Part shown: positions 27,853-36,070 of the stretch, one piece after another
Layout of the letters: the number at the start of each line of letters is the position of its first letter
Position numbering within the stretch: the stretch's first letter is position 1
NCBI RefSeq assembly: GCF_009939295.1
Contig: NZ_WVIC01000031.1
Location: forward strand, 1-53,233
From: Petrachloros mirabilis ULC683
GTDB lineage: Bacteria > Cyanobacteriota > Cyanobacteriia > Thermosynechococcales > Thermosynechococcaceae
Direction of reading: 5' to 3'
Length of the DNA stretch: 53,233 nucleotides
Position numbers and translations under genes: made by a program
Notes under the pieces: model-generated
Database searches by the model: none
Told to the model about the DNA's origin: nothing
Seen by the model: the letters and a program-made list of their open reading frames with translations, nothing else

Positions 27853-28827
27853 TCACCCTTCAGGAAATTGGTTGAGATCAATGCCTTGGGTTCGCATAAG
27901 GGCTTCTAGCTGCTCTAATCGTTGCTGAGCTTGCTCTGCCCGTTGGCGCTCCTGGTCAGCTCGTTGCTGAGCCTGCTCTGCCCGTTGGCGCTCCTGCTCT
28001 AGTCGTTGCTGAGCTTGTTCTGCCCGTTGGTGTTCTTGGTCAGCTCGTTGGCGTTCCTGGTCAGCTCGTTGACGTTCTGCCGCTTGCCCCTCCGCCCCGG
28101 TAAGAATCACCTGACCCTTCTGGTCACACCACCGCAACCACAGCCGAGGGGTTTCCTCTTCGTAGGCTCCTTGCCACAGAGTCAGTCCCAGTCCAATTCC
28201 ATCTAGCCAGACCAACTCGCCCACGCTGGCGACGCCTGAGGGTAACGTTAACTCGGTGTAGCCAGTTGGGGAGATTGTCCACACGCGCAACAGCGCCTCC
28301 CCCATATCTTGATCACCCTGAATCTGCTGAAGCGGGTCAAACACCACGTAGTAGGGCACCCCAACTTGGGCATAGATGTCTTTTTTACTCCGCATTTTTC
28401 CTTTGCGCTGAGGTTTTTGGCTAATAGATAGCTCGTCACCTTCTTGATTAGACACAATCTCAATACAGACATCGGGAACCTTGCCAAATTGCCAGACAAA
28501 GTAGGTGCGATTTTCCCGTTGCGAGAAGTCTTCAGCCCGCTTTACCCCCAGGCTGAGAAGCATATCTGGAACAACTGGGTCGCTTTTGAGCTTATAAAAT
28601 AACCCGACATCAGCTTCGGCGATGAAAGGTAGAGCAATGGGTCGGGTGGCATAGAGCGGGTCAATGAGCAATCGTTGTTGCTGGGCCGATTGGAAATTAT
28701 CCACAGGGGTATCGTCTTCGATCACAAGGTGACTGGTGTCGAGGGCAGTGACAATCCCGTCAGGGTGCTCGTCTGAGATCTCAAACTGGTGAGTTTCCGA
28801 GTTGAGCAGTTCTTGAGCCATAGACAA
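27853..28827 (-). CDS. Uma2-family protein with heptad-repeat tail
   Basis: Uma2 (DUF820) proteins have a PD-(D/E)XK-type endonuclease fold and are greatly expanded in cyanobacteria. The 324 residues contain the core FGKVPDVCIEIVSNQEGDEL, then KKDIYAQVGVPYYVVFDP, with plausible Asp, Glu and Lys active-site residues. Residues 253-308 are eight consecutive heptads of QRA(D/E)Q(E/A)(R/Q) type, a strong coiled coil, ending in LEALMRTQGIDLNQF. The paralogue at 31067-31954 has the same architecture. Upstream lies a Fur-like palindrome (28919-28934) shared with the AraC gene. Confidence 0.85.
   Translation of the reverse strand: MSMAQELLNSETHQFEISDEHPDGIVTALDTSHLVIEDDTPVDNFQSAQQQRLLIDPLYATRPIALPFIAEADVGLFYKLKSDPVVPDMLLSLGVKRAEDFSQRENRTYFVWQFGKVPDVCIEIVSNQEGDELSISQKPQRKGKMRSKKDIYAQVGVPYYVVFDPLQQIQGDQDMGEALLRVWTISPTGYTELTLPSGVASVGELVWLDGIGLGLTLWQGAYEEETPRLWLRWCDQKGQVILTGAEGQAAERQRADQERQRADQEHQRAEQAQQRLEQERQRAEQAQQRADQERQRAEQAQQRLEQLEALMRTQGIDLNQFPEG
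27904..28071 (-). repeat. In-frame 21-bp tandem repeats coding for a heptad coiled coil
   Basis: Eight 21-bp units encode one heptad each (consensus QRAEQER/QRADQER) within the Uma2 gene. Unit boundaries match codon boundaries and the sequence is near-identical between units, so the array could expand or shrink by slippage. Confidence 0.8.
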
Positions 28828-29294: not shown

Positions 29295-30272
29295 ATGACT
29301 ATTCTCCTTTCAGAACAGGCAAGGCTCGCCTCTCGCTCTACCGCTGCCGACCGTCCAAGCTCTGGCGACTATGAACTGGTGATTCAAGCTCCCCAGGCAA
29401 CCAGTCGGGGCTATAAGCGATCGCTTAACTTTAGCCGCGGCCTGAATCTGCTGATTCGCGACTACTGGCTGCAAGACACCCTAGTCGAAGAACTGCTGCC
29501 TGAACCCGAAGGTCTGACCCTGGAGTTTGGATTTGATTTGGTGATGGCTTCAGAAATAGATCTGGCCAGACCACCCCAGGAAGGCTTTGTGCAAGTAGCC
29601 TCAAATCGCACCCATGCTGACACGGTGGAATGGCCCTACCGGGGTCGACTGCTGAAAGTTGACCTGCACCTGAAAGCCCCAGCGGCAATGGCTGACTTTA
29701 GCCCTGAGCAACTGGCTCTGATTCCAGTGGAGCTGCAAGGGGTGGTTAACCAGCAGCCCGATTTTTGGTATCGGTCTCTGGGGGAGATCGCCCCTAACAT
29801 CCAGGTCGTACTCCAGCAAATTCTCAACTGCCCCTACACCGGCTCCATCCAGCAAGTCTACCTGGAAGGAAAAGCCCTGGAGTTGATCGCCATCCAAACC
29901 GCCCAATGGGCAGAATCTAAACCCTCCAGGTTGACCCAACGGCTGAAATTGTCAGATATTGACCGCATCCACCAAGCCAGAGATCTCATTGTCCAACGCC
30001 TGGACGATCCTCCGTCGCTGCTGGATCTGGCTCGAGCCGTCGGGCTCAACGACTGCACCCTGAAGCGAGGGTTTCGCCAGGTGTTTGGTACGACGGTGTT
30101 TGGCTACCTGCGGCAGCAGCGCCTGAGAAAAGCGCGACAGCTTTTGCAAGACACCGAAATGAGCGTGGCAGAGGTCACCTGCCAAGTGGGCTATAGCCAC
30201 GCGGGGCATTTTGCTGCCGCCTTTAAGCGCGAGTTTGGGGTTAGCCCGAAAGTATTCCAACGGTCAACATAG
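29295..30272 (+). CDS. AraC-family regulator (PchR-like)
   Basis: This is a transcription factor of 325 residues. The C-terminal DNA-binding region has two helix-turn-helix units: LLDLARAVGLNDCTLKRGFRQVFG and EMSVAEVTCQVGYSHAGHFAAAFKREFGVSPKVFQ. The N-terminal half (about 20-200) resembles the effector domain of PchR-type regulators, which sense ferric siderophores and switch on the matching receptor. A TonB receptor and binding protein lie 1.9 kb downstream on the same strand, which fits. Its own promoter region has a Fur-like box. The siderophore is unknown. Confidence 0.87.
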   Translation: MTILLSEQARLASRSTAADRPSSGDYELVIQAPQATSRGYKRSLNFSRGLNLLIRDYWLQDTLVEELLPEPEGLTLEFGFDLVMASEIDLARPPQEGFVQVASNRTHADTVEWPYRGRLLKVDLHLKAPAAMADFSPEQLALIPVELQGVVNQQPDFWYRSLGEIAPNIQVVLQQILNCPYTGSIQQVYLEGKALELIAIQTAQWAESKPSRLTQRLKLSDIDRIHQARDLIVQRLDDPPSLLDLARAVGLNDCTLKRGFRQVFGTTVFGYLRQQRLRKARQLLQDTEMSVAEVTCQVGYSHAGHFAAAFKREFGVSPKVFQRST

Positions 30273-30295: not shown

Positions 30296-30871
30296 TCATC
30301 TTCCAGCCTGAAGCACTTGGGTTGTGGTTAATTTCAGCATTGGAAACATTGGAGAAATCAGGCGATCGCCGCCTCGAAACACGGCGGCCTCATACAACCC
30401 ATCGACCAGCCTTAACACCGTCACCTGAGCCTGATCCGGATCGACAAGCCAATATTCGGCGATGCCCCTTGCCCCATATTCTGATCGCTTGTAACGGTAA
30501 TCGCGGTCTTCATTCTCTTTCCCTGGCGATACAATTTCAATGGCCAACAGCGGCGGCGGCATATCCATCATCACAATGCTGCGGTTTGCCCCTGCCAGGG
30601 CAGCCTCCAATTCCTCAGACAACACCAGCAAATCAGGCACCCGAACTGTTGCCCGAGAGCCACTGACGGCTACCTCTGTTCCTCGACGCAGCCGCTGCAC
30701 TGGCACAACTTGAATAAAGACCCCAATTAGGTACATGGCGATTGCATTATTCAAATCGCTCTCTGACGGCATTTCTACTAACTCTCCATTCACCAACTCA
30801 TAGCGCCGATCGGTGCCGTCGTCATAGGTCAGATACTCGGCTAAAGTGAACCGCTGGGTAGCTGTAACCAT
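30296..30871 (-). CDS. Uma2-family protein
   Basis: This 191-residue protein is the short, tail-less form of the Uma2 (DUF820) family. It starts MVTATQRFTLAEYLTYDDGT and shows YELVNGELVEMPSES, VRVPDLLVLSEEL, LLAIEIVSPGKENEDRDYRYKRSEYGARGIAEYWLVDP and a beta-strand ending. The pattern with Glu in AIEIVSPG and Lys in RYKRSEY is the predicted nuclease core. It lies tail to tail with the AraC gene (24 nt apart) and is one of three Uma2 genes within 4.1 kb, all on the minus strand. No function is known beyond the fold. Confidence 0.88.
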   Translation of the reverse strand: MVTATQRFTLAEYLTYDDGTDRRYELVNGELVEMPSESDLNNAIAMYLIGVFIQVVPVQRLRRGTEVAVSGSRATVRVPDLLVLSEELEAALAGANRSIVMMDMPPPLLAIEIVSPGKENEDRDYRYKRSEYGARGIAEYWLVDPDQAQVTVLRLVDGLYEAAVFRGGDRLISPMFPMLKLTTTQVLQAGR

Positions 30872-31066: not shown

Positions 31067-31954
31067 TTATTCCAAATTAGGCAGTTGATCTGGATCAATG
31101 CCCTGCGATCGCAGATAGGCTTCTAGCCGCTCTCTGGCTTGCCGCTCCTGTTCAGCCCGCTGCTGCTCCTGTTCAGCCCGTTCTCGCTCCTGTTCAGCCC
31201 GTTGTCGCTCCTGTTCAGCTCGTTGCCGTTCAAGTGCTTGTCCTTCTGCACCCGTGAGAATCACCTGACCCTCGCGATCGCACCAGCGTAGCCACAATCT
31301 TGGGATATCTTCCTCAAACGCCCCTTGCCAAAGGGTCAGTCCTAGTTCAACTCTCTCTAACCAGACAGACTCTTCTAAGTTGACAACTCCCTGGGAGGGT
31401 GTTAGTTCGACATACCCAGTGGAAGTAATAGACCATACCCGCAGCAGCGCCCCATTCATTTCCATTTCGCCTTGAATCTGCTGAAGGGGGTCAAATACGA
31501 CGTAATAAGGCACACCAATTTGAGTGTAGATCTCTTTTTTGCTAGTCACTCTTCCCTTCTGTCGTGATTTTTGACTCAGGGTTAATTCATCACCTTCTTG
31601 ATTAGACACAATTTCGATACAAACATCAGGAACTTTGCCAAATTCCCAGACAAAGTAAGAACGATGACGACGTTCAGAGAAATTCTCAGCTCGCTGTACT
31701 CCTAAGCTCAATAGCACATCTGGAACAATCGGGTCGCCTTTCAATTTATAGAATAGTCCGACATTGGCAGCCGCCAAAAAAGGAGAAGGAAGCACCTTGG
31801 AACTACAAATAGGCTCTACGAGTAAGCGCTGCTGCAATTCTGATTGAAAATTGTCCACCGGGGTATCGTCCTCAATGACGAGATGACTGATGTCAAGCTC
31901 AGTGATGATTTCTTCGGTATCCAGCACGGGTGGATTCTCATTAAGACGAACCAT
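31067..31954 (-). CDS. Uma2-family protein with coiled-coil tail
   Basis: This 295-residue protein is a paralogue of the product of 27853-28827; they share HLVIEDDTPVDNFQS, then FGKVPDVCIEIVSNQEGDEL and GVPYYVVFDPLQQIQGE. The C-terminal tail (244-278) is five heptads of QRAEQER type, ending RERLEAYLRSQGIDPDQLPN. Tail length differs from the paralogue (five against eight heptads). Its start lies 180 nt from the divergent TonB receptor gene, across a perfect palindrome (32084-32110), so the two genes may share regulation. Confidence 0.87.
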   Translation of the reverse strand: MVRLNENPPVLDTEEIITELDISHLVIEDDTPVDNFQSELQQRLLVEPICSSKVLPSPFLAAANVGLFYKLKGDPIVPDVLLSLGVQRAENFSERRHRSYFVWEFGKVPDVCIEIVSNQEGDELTLSQKSRQKGRVTSKKEIYTQIGVPYYVVFDPLQQIQGEMEMNGALLRVWSITSTGYVELTPSQGVVNLEESVWLERVELGLTLWQGAFEEDIPRLWLRWCDREGQVILTGAEGQALERQRAEQERQRAEQERERAEQEQQRAEQERQARERLEAYLRSQGIDPDQLPNLE

Positions 31955-32083
31955 AGTAGGGTGCTCCGGCGATACTGCGTTTAGTATAACTTGAGGGTAA
32001 AATCCTCAAGAATTCCGCTGGGGGACTGAAAAATTCCGCCGCATAGCAGACGCGATCGCACCTTTCAGCTTAAAGTCCCTGTA

Positions 32084-32110
32084 GCTAGATGCAAATGATT
32101 TGCATCTAGC
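32084..32110. promoter_or_regulatory. Perfect 12-bp palindrome before the TonB receptor gene
   Basis: The arms GCTAGATGCAAA and TTTGCATCTAGC flank the trinucleotide TGA, 25 nt before the receptor ATG. The core CAAATGATTTG resembles iron-responsive sites, and the position suits binding by Fur or by the nearby AraC regulator. It could instead form a hairpin in the leader RNA. Confidence 0.55.
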
Positions 32111-32134
32111 TGGGGCAAATATCTGGATGGTGGT

Positions 32135-34675
32135 GTGCAGAAGATGACTCAGAAGCGGATGGGATGGGGCTTATTGGCTGGCGTGGTAGGGATGATCACC
32201 GTAATTGAACCATTGCTCGTCCGGGCTAATGACGATGCTCCCGTGCTTAACTCGAATGACTCATTTGCCGGCGATCTCGACTCTGTTGCCACAACCGTTG
32301 AGGAGTGGTTAGCTCAGATAGCCCAGGCACGGGTACAAATAACGGGAGTGCAGCTAGACATTTCAGAGTCAGGCTTGCAGGTGGTGCTAGAAACGGCGGG
32401 GGAACTGTTGACACCGACCACGCGATTGCTGGGCAACGCTCTGATTGCTGAATTTCCCAATGCGGTGCTGTCTCTGCCCGAGGGCGACGAATTTTCCCAA
32501 GCCAATCCGACTGAGGGCATTGCCTTGGTCACGGTGAGCAATCTACCCGGTGACCAAGTGCGAGTGGCAATCACTGGCACCGAGGCTCCCCCAATGGCAA
32601 CAGTGAGCCCTGGAGTGCAGGGTTTGATCTTCAGTGTGGTGCCTGGAACTGCCACAGCGGAGGCCGATGAAGAGGCGATTCAGGTGGTGGTGACGGGGGA
32701 GCAGGATGAGGGGTATAACCCCTCTAGCGCTAGCACTGCGACTCGCACCGATACTCCATTGCGGGATATTCCGCAAGCGATTCAGGTAATTCCTCGGCAG
32801 GTGATTGAAGACCAGGGTATAACCCGGATTGAAGATGCGTTGCGAAATGCGGTTGGGGTTTCTCAGCAGGTCGATCGCCGGTCTCCCGCAGGCAGTTTTG
32901 CCATTCGGGGCTTTCGTTCCAACGGACTCAGAAATGGATTCGAATTTATCCAAAGTGGGCAAGGAAGGCAAACTGCGATTCAGCTCCCCAATACAATTGA
33001 ACGGGTTGAAGTCCTTAGAGGGCCAGATTCTGTTTTGTACGGAGCCGGTGAACCCGGAGGCACAGTTAACTACGTTACAAAGCAGCCGCTCAGTGAGCCA
33101 TACTATGGAGCCGACTTTACAGTCGGGCAATTTAGTTTTTATCAACCTTCGCTTGATCTGTCTGGCCCCCTCCGAGAAGATCGATCATTGCTGTATCGGT
33201 TGACAGCAACGTATCAAAATTTTGGTAGCTTCCTGGATTTTGTAAATGGAGAAGCGGTCTCAATAGCGCCTATTATTAGCTATCAAATCAGTGAAAATAC
33301 CCGCTTAGGCTTTGAATATGAGTATGCTTATTATAGCCAAACCTCTAACTCTGGCTTGCCGCTAGATTCAGTTATTTTTGATCTTCCTAGAAGTCGAAAT
33401 TATGATTTCTCAAATCGTCCTCGAAATGGTGAAAATCATGCTTTAATTTTTAGTCTAGAGCATGTCTTGAACGAATCAATTAGATTGAAATCAGCTTTTC
33501 GAGCTAATTTTTTTAATGCCAATGATCGATCACTTGGCTTATTCGATTTTGATGCTAATACCAATGAAATATTTCTGGGATATAGAGAAGGTAAAGATCG
33601 AAGAAATACCTATTCGCTACAAAATAGTTTAACGGCTCAATTCAACACTGGCTCAGTACAGCATAAGCTCTTGTTTGGAGTGGACTGGATAACTGGAAAA
33701 TCTGCTGATAGCGTAACTGAATTTGGCACACTTACTTTAAATGCTTTTAATCCTAATTTCAATCAACCTTTTCAGTTTGATCAAGATTTTTTCTTTGAGC
33801 GAGAAATTAACACTACAGAGGTAGGAATTTATCTGCAAGACCAAATTACATTGCTATCAAATCTGAAATTACTCATTGGAGGTCGATATGACTTCCTCAC
33901 CTATAATGAGGAAGGATTTGAATTGTTTGAGGGAGAACGGACTGATTTTTCAGCAAGTTTTTCAGAGCAAGCTTTTTCACCCCGTGTAGGTATTGTCTAT
34001 CAACCTATTGAACCGATTTCGCTTTATGCCAGCTATAATCAATCATTTTCACCCAACAATGCACTGACTCGCAATGGAGACATCATCAAACCTGAACGTG
34101 GCAATCAGTATGAAGTAGGGATAAGAGCAGAGTTTGGCAATCTATCGGCCAATCTGGCAGCTTACCAAATCACTAAAACAAATGTCCTCAGAACGGATCC
34201 AAATGATCCAGATTTCCAAATTCCCATTGGTGAAGTGAGAAGTCGTGGCCTTGAATTTGATATTGGCGGTGAAATCTTACCTGGGTGGAATATTATCGCC
34301 ACAGCATTTTTGAATGATGCGGTGGTTACTGTTGGAGATGAGTCTAGCCCGGAAGGCAATACTTTGATCAATGCACCTCGACATGGTGTTAGCTTGTGGT
34401 CAACCTATGAAATTCAGCAGGGAAGTTTCCAAGGGTTCGGGTTGGGGACAGGCTTATTTTATGTAGGGAATCGCGAAACTCAAATTCCTAATAACTTTGT
34501 GTTACCGTCTTATGTTCGTACAGATGCAGTACTATTTTATCGCCGTGATAACTGGAATGTACAACTCAATTTTAGAAATCTGTTTAACACTCGATATTTT
34601 GAAGGAAATGCTGGACAACTAACGACTGCTGGTGAACCGTTTACGGTACAAGGAAAAGTTTCAGTTCAATTTTGA
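32135..34675 (+). CDS. TonB-dependent siderophore receptor with N-terminal AMIN domain
   Basis: This outer-membrane receptor takes up ferric siderophores using TonB energy. The 846 residues comprise a signal peptide (to about 32, ending VRA), an AMIN domain (about 65-175) as in many cyanobacterial receptors, a TonB-box-like IQVVVTG, the plug domain (DTPLRDIPQAIQVIPRQVIE, then LRGPDSVLYGAGEPGGTVNY) and a 22-strand barrel ending in FTVQGKVSVQF with the terminal Phe. The DNA before about 33180 has the GC content of the surrounding chromosome, whereas the rest of the gene is clearly AT-rich. It heads a unit with the binding-protein gene 21 nt downstream. Confidence 0.93.
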   Translation: MQKMTQKRMGWGLLAGVVGMITVIEPLLVRANDDAPVLNSNDSFAGDLDSVATTVEEWLAQIAQARVQITGVQLDISESGLQVVLETAGELLTPTTRLLGNALIAEFPNAVLSLPEGDEFSQANPTEGIALVTVSNLPGDQVRVAITGTEAPPMATVSPGVQGLIFSVVPGTATAEADEEAIQVVVTGEQDEGYNPSSASTATRTDTPLRDIPQAIQVIPRQVIEDQGITRIEDALRNAVGVSQQVDRRSPAGSFAIRGFRSNGLRNGFEFIQSGQGRQTAIQLPNTIERVEVLRGPDSVLYGAGEPGGTVNYVTKQPLSEPYYGADFTVGQFSFYQPSLDLSGPLREDRSLLYRLTATYQNFGSFLDFVNGEAVSIAPIISYQISENTRLGFEYEYAYYSQTSNSGLPLDSVIFDLPRSRNYDFSNRPRNGENHALIFSLEHVLNESIRLKSAFRANFFNANDRSLGLFDFDANTNEIFLGYREGKDRRNTYSLQNSLTAQFNTGSVQHKLLFGVDWITGKSADSVTEFGTLTLNAFNPNFNQPFQFDQDFFFEREINTTEVGIYLQDQITLLSNLKLLIGGRYDFLTYNEEGFELFEGERTDFSASFSEQAFSPRVGIVYQPIEPISLYASYNQSFSPNNALTRNGDIIKPERGNQYEVGIRAEFGNLSANLAAYQITKTNVLRTDPNDPDFQIPIGEVRSRGLEFDIGGEILPGWNIIATAFLNDAVVTVGDESSPEGNTLINAPRHGVSLWSTYEIQQGSFQGFGLGTGLFYVGNRETQIPNNFVLPSYVRTDAVLFYRRDNWNVQLNFRNLFNTRYFEGNAGQLTTAGEPFTVQGKVSVQF

Positions 34676-34696
34676 GCAAGTTGACATAGTTAGGTT

Positions 34697-35665
34697 ATGC
34701 AATTAAAGTTTTTCTGGCAAAAAATTCATAGTCTCTTCCTATTAATTCTGATCTTGGGTCTGATTATTACTTGTCAACATAAAACTTTAGAAAAATCTGC
34801 TCCAAGCGCAAGATACTCCACAACAGAAGATTGCAGAACAATTTCTCATTCAATGGGAGAGACTTGTGTTCCAAATGAACCTCAGAAAGTTGTCGTACTT
34901 ACTCATCTTGATAATACTTTGACTTTAGGAATTAAGCCTATCGGTGCATCCACAAAAAATGACAATAAGTTTAGCAGTTTACTAATTGAACAAACTAAAG
35001 AGATTGAAAATGTTGGGTTACTGGGAGAGCCTAGCCTAGAGAAACTAGTACAGCTCAATCCTGACCTTATTGTGCTGGCTTATCCGAGGCAAATCTATAC
35101 ACAATTATCAGAGATCGCTCCAACTGTCCTGTTCTGGGATCAAGATGAAGCTTATGAAAATTGGAAGGATATATTCAACGCTTATGCTAATGTTTTAGGA
35201 AAAACTAAAGAAGCGAATGAAATTTTGAATGACTACCAACAACGAGTAATTGATTTTAGAAACGCAATGGGCGATCGTCTATCGAATACTGAAGTTTCCA
35301 TAGTTAATTTCTTTGCCAATGACGTTCGCCTTTACCTGAAGCAATCATTTGCAGGACAGATTCTTGAAGAAGTTGGTCTGCCACGACCTCCTGAGCAAGA
35401 TAAGGACGAATGGTCTGTTGAACACCTTTCCTTGGAAGCGATTCCTCAAATGGCAGGCGATGTTATTTTCCTGACTCTTGGCGGTCATGAGCAATCAAAG
35501 TTAGATCAGTTTACAAGTCATCCGCTTTGGTCTCAGTTAGAAGCCGTACAAAAAGGTAGAGTCTATGAGGTAAGTAGTAGAGTTTGGATAGGTGGAGAAA
35601 CCCCTGTTGCCGCCAATCTTGTTCTAGATGATTTGTTTAAATATTTGATCAGTGACTCGCAATAA
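34697..35665 (+). CDS. Iron-siderophore ABC transporter substrate-binding protein (FhuD/FecB-like)
   Basis: This periplasmic lipoprotein-like binding protein has 322 residues. The N-terminus is a signal peptide ending LGLIITC, where Cys27 would be lipidated, although Thr at -1 is not the usual Gly or Ala. The class III binding-protein fold follows: VVVLTHLDNTLTLGIKPIGAS, VGLLGEPSLEKLVQLNPDLIVLAYP, IAPTVLFWDQD, ETPVAANLVLDDL. The gene is AT-rich like the 3' part of the receptor gene. No permease or ATPase is nearby, so it must rely on a transporter encoded elsewhere. Confidence 0.9.
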   Translation: MQLKFFWQKIHSLFLLILILGLIITCQHKTLEKSAPSARYSTTEDCRTISHSMGETCVPNEPQKVVVLTHLDNTLTLGIKPIGASTKNDNKFSSLLIEQTKEIENVGLLGEPSLEKLVQLNPDLIVLAYPRQIYTQLSEIAPTVLFWDQDEAYENWKDIFNAYANVLGKTKEANEILNDYQQRVIDFRNAMGDRLSNTEVSIVNFFANDVRLYLKQSFAGQILEEVGLPRPPEQDKDEWSVEHLSLEAIPQMAGDVIFLTLGGHEQSKLDQFTSHPLWSQLEAVQKGRVYEVSSRVWIGGETPVAANLVLDDLFKYLISDSQ

Positions 35666-35680
35666 AGTCTCAGGTAAACC

Positions 35681-36070
35681 ATGGCTAAGGATCAATTCTT
35701 TTGTGCTGAAGCATCTCGTCAGTCTGGTGTAGACATTATTGGTACGGCGTCAACCCACAGGATTTATATCGCGATTGAACATGCCCCACCCTGGGAGTCC
35801 TATGATCTTGAGTCTAAGGGGATTCCAGAAAATTTATGCGAGTTAGATGAAGAACTTGATGAGGCATACGATCGCTATCAGACTCGCTTTTTGCTGGTTT
35901 ATAATGAGCGTCTGAAACTGGAAAAGGGAGTTCGAGTTCTCTGTTTTCGTAAACCACCTGGACTGGCCAACGCTTACGATAAGCAAGAATTTCACCTGAG
36001 TGACATTCAAGCGGTGGCTCCCTTGGTAAAAGAGTATGTGGTGGAGGGCTCAGTCAGTGTTAGGTTGTGA
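35681..36070 (+). pseudogene. Sucrase/ferredoxin-like protein, C-terminally truncated
   Basis: The 129 residues (FFCAEASRQSGVDIIGTAST, HRIYIAIEHAPPWESYD, then IPENLCELDEEL and RFLLVYNE) match the N-terminal part of Suc_Fer-like proteins, which in cyanobacteria often follow siderophore-uptake genes. The family is usually about 300 residues, with a thioredoxin-like cysteine region in the missing second half. Here the frame ends at 36070, 21 nt inside the convergent Anbu gene. It is probably a 3' deletion joined to unrelated DNA. It may be a non-functional remnant, or less likely a short functional domain. Confidence 0.65.

Follow-up and report, generated by a model that had tools for sequence, protein, structure and literature searches.

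Comparison of TonB-dependent siderophore receptors across cyanobacterial genomes suggests that resident 5′ fronts carry exchangeable specificity bodies, and that one receptor gene of Petrachloros mirabilis ULC683 (the target) is such a mosaic; we give this reading a probability of roughly 0.78. The gene lies in the window (the whole stretch of 53,233 nucleotides analyzed here, contig C48 in a genome of 4.12 Mb and 79 contigs), where the open reading frame (ORF) at 32135 to 34675 encodes a receptor with the domain order AMIN, plug, and barrel, followed downstream by the gene of an iron-siderophore binding protein. Sixteen of the 18 named homologue loci are cyanobacterial. Front and body differ in genealogy, their ancestries meet at a joint of defined position, base composition follows a recurrent pattern along the gene, and one front type co-varies with one form of TonB.

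Under the mosaic reading, cyanobacterial AMIN-type TonB-dependent siderophore receptors would consist of two parts. The 5′ portion (signal peptide, AMIN domain, linker, and TonB box) would be resident, with one front type in most such receptors of a genome, and would be adapted to the cell envelope and perhaps to the cell's own TonB, a match that would be the reason for its retention. The 3′ portion, comprising plug and barrel and, in the clearest case, the binding-protein gene next to them, would circulate between species and would set specificity. Bodies would be joined onto fronts by homologous recombination in a conserved stretch at and just after the TonB box, which would act as shared homology. 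The target would thus combine a type-1 front of host-like composition with a body and binding protein that are AT-rich and derive from a different lineage. Its parts, with guanine-plus-cytosine content at third codon positions given as GC3 and model confidence as the predicted local distance difference test (pLDDT), are as follows.

32135 to 32662, plus strand: putative resident front (signal peptide, AMIN domain at residues ~62 to 175, and start of the linker), with PF11741 at residues 77 to 167
32663 to 32854, plus strand: joint, residues 177 to 240 (disordered linker, putative TonB box, and conserved stretch STATRTDTPLRDIPQAIQVIPRQVIED), placed by tract switches and pLDDT
32855 to 34675, plus strand: putative guest body (remaining plug and barrel), AT-rich, with PF07715 at residues 209 to 310 and PF00593 at 383 to 816
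33128 to 33361, plus strand: composition step, 33128 being the single best break and 33361 the second break of a two-break fit
34697 to 35665, plus strand: iron-siderophore binding protein (PF01497), GC3 0.30, identified by Pfam match and most closely related to the binding protein paired with the body's nearest relative

Genealogies of front and body

Two receptor sets were compared. The first holds 66 homologues, 24 of 90 having been dropped for a bit score below 400 or a match start after residue 90 (weak, distant, or cut matches, or matches with no matching front). The second, independent of the discovery of the pattern, holds 101 receptors from eight multi-copy genomes of a class-wide sample, after 6 of 107 rows were dropped; receptors of the AMIN type number 6 to 18 per genome in this set. 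The combined set comprises 135 receptors in 11 genomes, which are few and related. The P. mirabilis genome contains seven close paralogues of the target (45 to 57% identity) and several distant matches.

In the first set, AMIN-region identity was higher within than between genomes for P. mirabilis (58 versus 44%), G007 (63 versus 38%), and G021 (49 versus 40%), and no same-genome excess was seen in plug or barrel except in the first half of the G021 barrel (40 versus 35%); the identity profile changes at residues 200 to 220. The excess spans residues 41 to 200, over which the within/between ratio in the second set is 1.26 to 1.41, compared with 1.01 to 1.07 from residue 201 on. The front ratio exceeded 1.1 in each of the eight genomes, ranging from 1.11 (G064) to 1.41. 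Across all 135 receptors, identity of the AMIN/TonB-box front was 0.52 within and 0.38 between genomes, and the ratios for plug and barrel were 1.02 and 1.04; expressed as differences, the values were 0.137 for the front, 0.009 for the plug (inside the shuffled range), and 0.016 for the barrel. The nearest relative lay in the same genome for 76 of the 135 fronts (12 expected), 16 plugs, and 17 barrels. When near copies were removed (69 receptors left), the ratios were 1.22 for the front and 1.02 for the body.

The trees, which are quick searches with clades named after inspection, give the same picture. Genome labels changed 31 times on the first-set front tree (46.5 when shuffled; 0 of 200 shuffles as low) and 45 times on the plug tree (47 of 200), with corresponding values of 33 (69.5 when shuffled; 0 of 200) and 67 (48 of 200) in the second set. 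Clusters agreed with genomes at an adjusted mutual information of 0.48 and 0.47 for fronts and 0.03 and 0.08 for bodies at the two thresholds used. Identity at fourfold-degenerate synonymous sites in individual pairs was 0.83 in the front and 0.26 in the plug (L101/L102), and 0.61 and 0.17 (L006/L085).

Approximately unbiased (AU) topology tests were run on 32 of 167 aligned receptors, hand-picked and comprising seven of the eight P. mirabilis receptors (L008 omitted), seven of the 17 of G007, the body relatives of the target, and others. The body clade of the target (starred in the tree) consists of the target, G172_1286, L009, L078, and G168_870. Front data reject this five-member clade (log-likelihood difference [delta lnL], 167) as well as a nine-member clade (229), and body data reject the union of the target with its front neighbor G172_7903 (193). 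Likewise, the seven G007 fronts as one clade are not rejected by front data (p 0.42) and are rejected by body data by 732. This conflict does not derive from composition. The plug sides with the barrel: the five-member barrel clade is recovered in the best plug tree (support 73, not starred), the clade of nine is not rejected (p 0.75), and the three nearest relatives of the target plug are those of its barrel. Plug and barrel are congruent and have one shared history. Among the eight bodies nearest to that of the target, four (L009, L010, L012, and L096) have fronts only 33 to 35% identical, and the paralogue fronts of P. mirabilis are 54 to 60% identical to the target front in six of seven cases (L008, 44%).

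Binding proteins could be paired for 55 of the 135 receptors, many loci ending early. Among receptors with a placed binding protein, that of the target is nearest to the one beside G172_1286 (61%; next, 43%), which also has the nearest body.

The joint and the composition step

The ancestry joint lies at residues ~177 to 240 (window ~32663 to 32854), which cover the TonB-box linker and the start of the plug. Among 13 chosen front-sharing pairs, the best estimate for the end of the shared tract fell at residues 218 to 240 in 11, the others ending at 161 and 198. A tract census, in which certain two-copy genomes enter as separate genomes, found the front far more similar than the body in 485 of 835 same-genome pairs and 1,201 of 6,360 between-genome pairs, and the body far more similar than the front in 2 of 835 and 57 of 6,360. 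The switch in the same-genome pairs is commonest at residues 220 to 239 (174 of 485); another broad peak, at 360 to 400, we attribute to variability in the barrel's first half. Of the 57 between-genome pairs that share the body, 54 switch in bins 160 to 219. At the DNA level, shared tracts cover the front only, the upstream DNA together with the front (L101/L102 and the L190 pair), or the body onward. Tracts confined to the front link paralogues with diverged bodies (L140/L142, L145/L148, and L106/L113). The clearest body cassette measures 3,053 nucleotides (nt) and is 78% identical between G073 and G117, which belong to two families and whose fronts are unrelated at 31%; it begins at the TonB box and ends 22 nt short of the stop codon of the binding-protein gene.

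A predicted model of the receptor (13 sequences; mean pLDDT, 72) places a beta domain for AMIN at residues 66 to 170, with pLDDT mostly 73 to 84. It is followed by a predicted disordered linker at residues 174 to 213 (pLDDT below 50), then by the plug, and by barrel strands from residue 323 onward. The putative TonB box, IQVVVTGEQ at residues 182 to 190, is inside the joint.

The single best break in base composition lies further downstream. The GC content of the window drops from 0.53 to 0.58 (32001 to 33000) to 0.35 to 0.43 (33251 to 35500), and receptor GC3 falls from 0.55 before codon 331 (window 33128) to 0.28 after it (log-likelihood gain, 30), part of the overall GC difference residing in first and second codon positions. 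The segment 33128 to 35665 has a GC content of 0.387, which is under all 420 genome windows sampled (lowest, 0.394; overlapping windows of 2.5 kb, taken from four contigs in 12 stretches of 20 kb each, 240 kb of the 4.12 Mb, receptor loci excluded). The binding-protein gene has a GC3 of 0.303, and the AT-richness extends past 35665, tapering off by about 36.7 kb. Composition fixes the position of the break poorly, any codon tried from 200 to 360 giving a gain of 25 to 30; fitting two breaks improves this only slightly (gain, 34) and sets them at codons 205 (0.61 to 0.42) and 409 (0.42 to 0.27). A step occurs in all seven P. mirabilis paralogues tested, six at target residues 197 to 239 (weak in L002, with an interval of 187 to 421) and L008 at 340.

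The pattern recurs among homologues. Front GC (residues 62 to 325) exceeds barrel GC in 66 of 66 receptors of the first set, among which the target has the largest difference, and GC3 does likewise in 47 of 66; in the second set (front, residues 62 to 200) 99 of 101 receptors again have the richer front by GC and 64 of 101 by GC3, with GC3 differences of up to 0.34 in single receptors. Mean front GC3 follows genome GC3 across the 11 genomes with a slope of 1.27 ± 0.12 (r = 0.96), and the slopes for plug (0.59) and barrel (0.54) are about half of that; the genomes are not independent points in these regressions, and the genome GC3 of G021 comes from one stretch with 6 ORFs. Since front GC3 tracks the genome and body GC3 does so less, the bodies look like guests unadjusted to their host and the fronts like residents.

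Weighing the explanations

The first-pass annotation had reported a base-composition break inside the receptor gene at residue ~340 and had suggested that barrel and binding protein may have been swapped in by recombination behind an existing AMIN-plug front, a swap that would alter siderophore specificity. The break is real, and the suggestion of a recombinant mosaic is borne out in kind by the reciprocal rejections of front and body groupings. Its placement is not, because the plug agrees with the barrel in genealogy and the switch in shared tracts falls at ~177 to 240, so that the plug belongs to the body. The composition change that its proposed GC and codon-usage comparison sought is present but poorly localized. 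Of the two observations that it named as refuting, similar shifts do occur in homologues, but front and body phylogenies conflict instead of agreeing. A single recent swap at residue ~340 in the target gene only, with the steepest visible GC change at ~33.1 to 33.4 kb in its favor, is thus very improbable: the plug shares the barrel's clade and nearest relatives, and six of the seven paralogues step at the start of the plug. Hardly more credible is that nothing moved and that barrels are AT-rich owing to amino acid content, weak expression, or constraints on RNA. The richer front in nearly all receptors and the part played by codon positions one and two fit such an intrinsic cause; however, third positions shift also, the plug shifts along without being a barrel itself, and eight other outer-membrane barrels of P. 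mirabilis (six of eight OprB matches and two of two Omp85) have GC3 values of 0.47 to 0.59. In addition, the AT-rich genomes G064, G117, and G134 have little or no body GC3 deficit relative to the front, and the tree conflict does not depend on composition. Fronts of one cell might instead converge under parallel selection to fit the same TonB and wall, with no exchange of DNA, which would agree with the co-variation of front type and TonB form and with the near saturation of average same-genome fronts at synonymous sites. We consider this unlikely, as synonymous sites agree between some pairs in the front alone, with the switch confined to a narrow region, and convergence would not restore third positions.

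More serious is the possibility that fronts move and bodies stay, gene conversion spreading fronts among resident receptors. The front-only tracts between paralogues with diverged bodies are what it predicts, and an other-family receptor of P. mirabilis (L058:3322-5961; body matches ~22 to 32%) has a local front, 68% identical to two P. mirabilis paralogues. Gene conversion alone leaves unexplained the body cassettes common to families whose fronts and flanks are unrelated and the deviation of body composition from that of the genome, and we regard it as a possible but somewhat doubtful account of the whole. Front conversion and body movement may both occur.

Several observations weigh against the mosaic reading itself. 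The remaining four of the target's eight nearest bodies have fronts that are 50 to 60% identical, and its closest body, that of G172_1286, is 56% identical, no donor being shown. The P. mirabilis front labels cluster weakly (6 changes for 8 rows, 7.7 when shuffled, 24 of 500 shuffles as low; in the 32-row set, 6 changes versus 6.5, 212 of 500 as low), front data reject its seven fronts (L008 omitted) as a clade by a delta lnL of 106, and the front closest to that of the target sits in G172 rather than in P. mirabilis. The target front is therefore best called a type common to P. mirabilis and related genomes. The G134 fronts also cluster weakly (54 of 500 shuffles as low), because G117 and G134 share a front type. 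Fourfold identity of average same-genome fronts is near saturation at 0.31 to 0.38, which implies that exchange was episodic or old, and the barrel's same-genome excess of 0.016, small as it is, is larger than in every shuffle. Other-family receptors carry the local front in two of two cases in P. mirabilis and in none of the four testable cases elsewhere, four more being without rows to compare. Binding proteins track the body only partly (Mantel correlation, 0.335 with the barrel and 0.27 with the front), and for the target the binding-protein rank correlation over 54 receptors is 0.24 with the body and 0.50 with the front. Finally, G051 has a short TonB of the kind described below, yet its single front falls in another cluster.

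TonB form, genomic context, and related systems

Bacteria frequently exchange iron-uptake receptors, and a foreign receptor still needs the TonB of its host. Clustering of the 167 fronts at 40% gave three main types with 84, 39, and 27 members, the target front being of type 1; a stricter threshold separated six of the sixteen G073 fronts as their own cluster. The idea of a link to TonB was derived from the two type-2 genomes G007 and G073, in which the TonB C-terminal domain is without the YPxxA segment (the short form, with ~six residues missing there in the alignment, compared with the roughly ten stated beforehand). Predictions were fixed for 10 genomes before 13 more were searched, the best PF03544 match being taken as the main TonB and further matches also being read for form. 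The short form was found in 4 of 4 genomes for which it was predicted (G034, G047, G063, and G003, the fronts of G063 lying outside the alignment), and the long form in 3 of 6 (G009, G055, and G031); the other three (G012, G019, and G006) each have solely a different, weakly scoring protein, which leaves their predictions undecided. All 39 type-2 fronts belong to five genomes, from four families, in which the best TonB is short, and none occurs in 11 long-form genomes. Family f1 holds both states, G007 and G003 being short with type 2 and P. mirabilis and G009 long without it. Further PF03544 matches are long in G198 and are unlike proteins in G168, G172, G003, G034, G051, and G009. The best TonB of P. 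mirabilis is long; a second, short TonB of this genome (G000:C51:35658-39702; L077 and L261) lies ~3 kb away from a distantly matching receptor without a listed AMIN domain.

Correlations across the 11 genomes, which are weak evidence, gave 0.40 for front versus TonB_C (p 0.004; partial on FabI, 0.34, p 0.027) and 0.23 for body versus TonB_C (p 0.09); without G117/G134 the front value was 0.43 (partial, 0.46, p 0.027). The segment missing from the short form is presumably near the TonB-box contact of Escherichia coli TonB. Tentatively, and at slightly less than even odds in our judgment, the AMIN-TonB-box front may be a cell-specific docking adaptor that co-evolves with the TonB C-terminal form, a cassette of plug, barrel, and binding protein being usable in a new cyanobacterium once joined to the local front at one conserved stretch.

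Around the receptor, the neighboring genes scanned include an AraC-type regulator, Uma2-family genes, and a proteasome-like gene. Two further features lie upstream.

32090 to 32104, plus strand: 15-base palindrome TGCAAATGATTTGCA, candidate regulator site 30 nt upstream of the receptor ORF
29295 to 30272, plus strand: AraC-type regulator (PF12833 by Pfam), its role suggested by position

The AraC-type regulator possibly targets the receptor operon, judging from its position, and the palindrome is a possible iron-regulator box. The sequence TGCAAATNATTTGCA is present in 4 of 247 loci, two of them being the window site itself; the other copies lie 22 nt upstream of a G117 receptor ORF (L186) and in a G172 receptor stretch (L137). 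Three Uma2-family genes (27853 to 28827, 30296 to 30871, and 31067 to 31954) flank the AraC gene and the receptor. A small ORF (35681 to 36070) follows the binding-protein gene; its weak relatives (29% identical) stand behind binding-protein genes in two paralogue operons with frames of 218 and 358 codons, and it may be a shortened copy of such a longer frame. Elsewhere, 15 receptors of the same family are spread across ~200 kb of one contig (G186:C5:272313-471949). The receptor at G021:C170:14016-16512 (L097) has front and body in separate frames and a TGA in the front, being either a decaying gene or a mosaic caught midway. G041 has 15 matches (L123 to L125 and L133), of which the long ones begin at residues 138 to 217 with fronts that are not AMIN-type and one short match begins at 60.

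Known systems resemble the target in part. Bacteroides SusC/SusD shufflon-type loci swap receptor and partner bodies behind a constant start, using a site-specific invertase within one genome, whereas the exchange proposed here would be between species and evolutionary. AMIN proteins that are not receptors, three of which are encoded by P. mirabilis, share PF11741 with the target, which differs in bearing AMIN on a TonB-dependent receptor; we take PilQ and the AmiC amidases to be proteins of this kind, which presumably bind the wall. The target's AMIN match scores 39.2 bits (gathering threshold, 20.5). Its body matches TIGR01783, the model of TonB-dependent siderophore receptors (FhuA-like group), from residue 211 to 846 at 388.2 bits (cutoff, 223.5; model positions 1 to 649 of 649), but the target adds an AMIN front that lies outside the model and has its own genealogy. 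The FhuA model NF007465 scores 293 bits, below its curated cutoff of 803; the binding protein matches PF01497 (Peripla_BP_2) at 93.3 bits (gathering threshold, 27.5), and all six NCBIfam models listed for it score below their own cutoffs. Pseudomonas FpvA pyoverdine receptors, in the available part of PMC11444679, also have an extra N-terminal domain before the plug and discriminating regions near the plug; that domain is STN rather than AMIN, and no within-genome sharing of fronts is described in that part. No STN signaling domain of the FpvA/FecA transducer type was found in the target by a Pfam scan at E 0.001, which gave AMIN, plug, and barrel only. Among the titles and abstract openings listed by searches of open-licence papers, none describes fronts shared within a genome, and in the main text of PMC2771747 the words "recombination" and "horizontal" are absent, both matches to "amin" being "amino" in the references.

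A resident front with traveling bodies would explain how 6 to 18 receptors diversified in one cyanobacterium. The joint would be a site at which to search for exchanged receptors, and the matching of TonB and receptor becomes testable with chimeras. Whole-gene receptor trees call for caution, as they can blend two histories. If the front is indeed a docking adaptor, the form of TonB would set which receptors a cyanobacterium can borrow.

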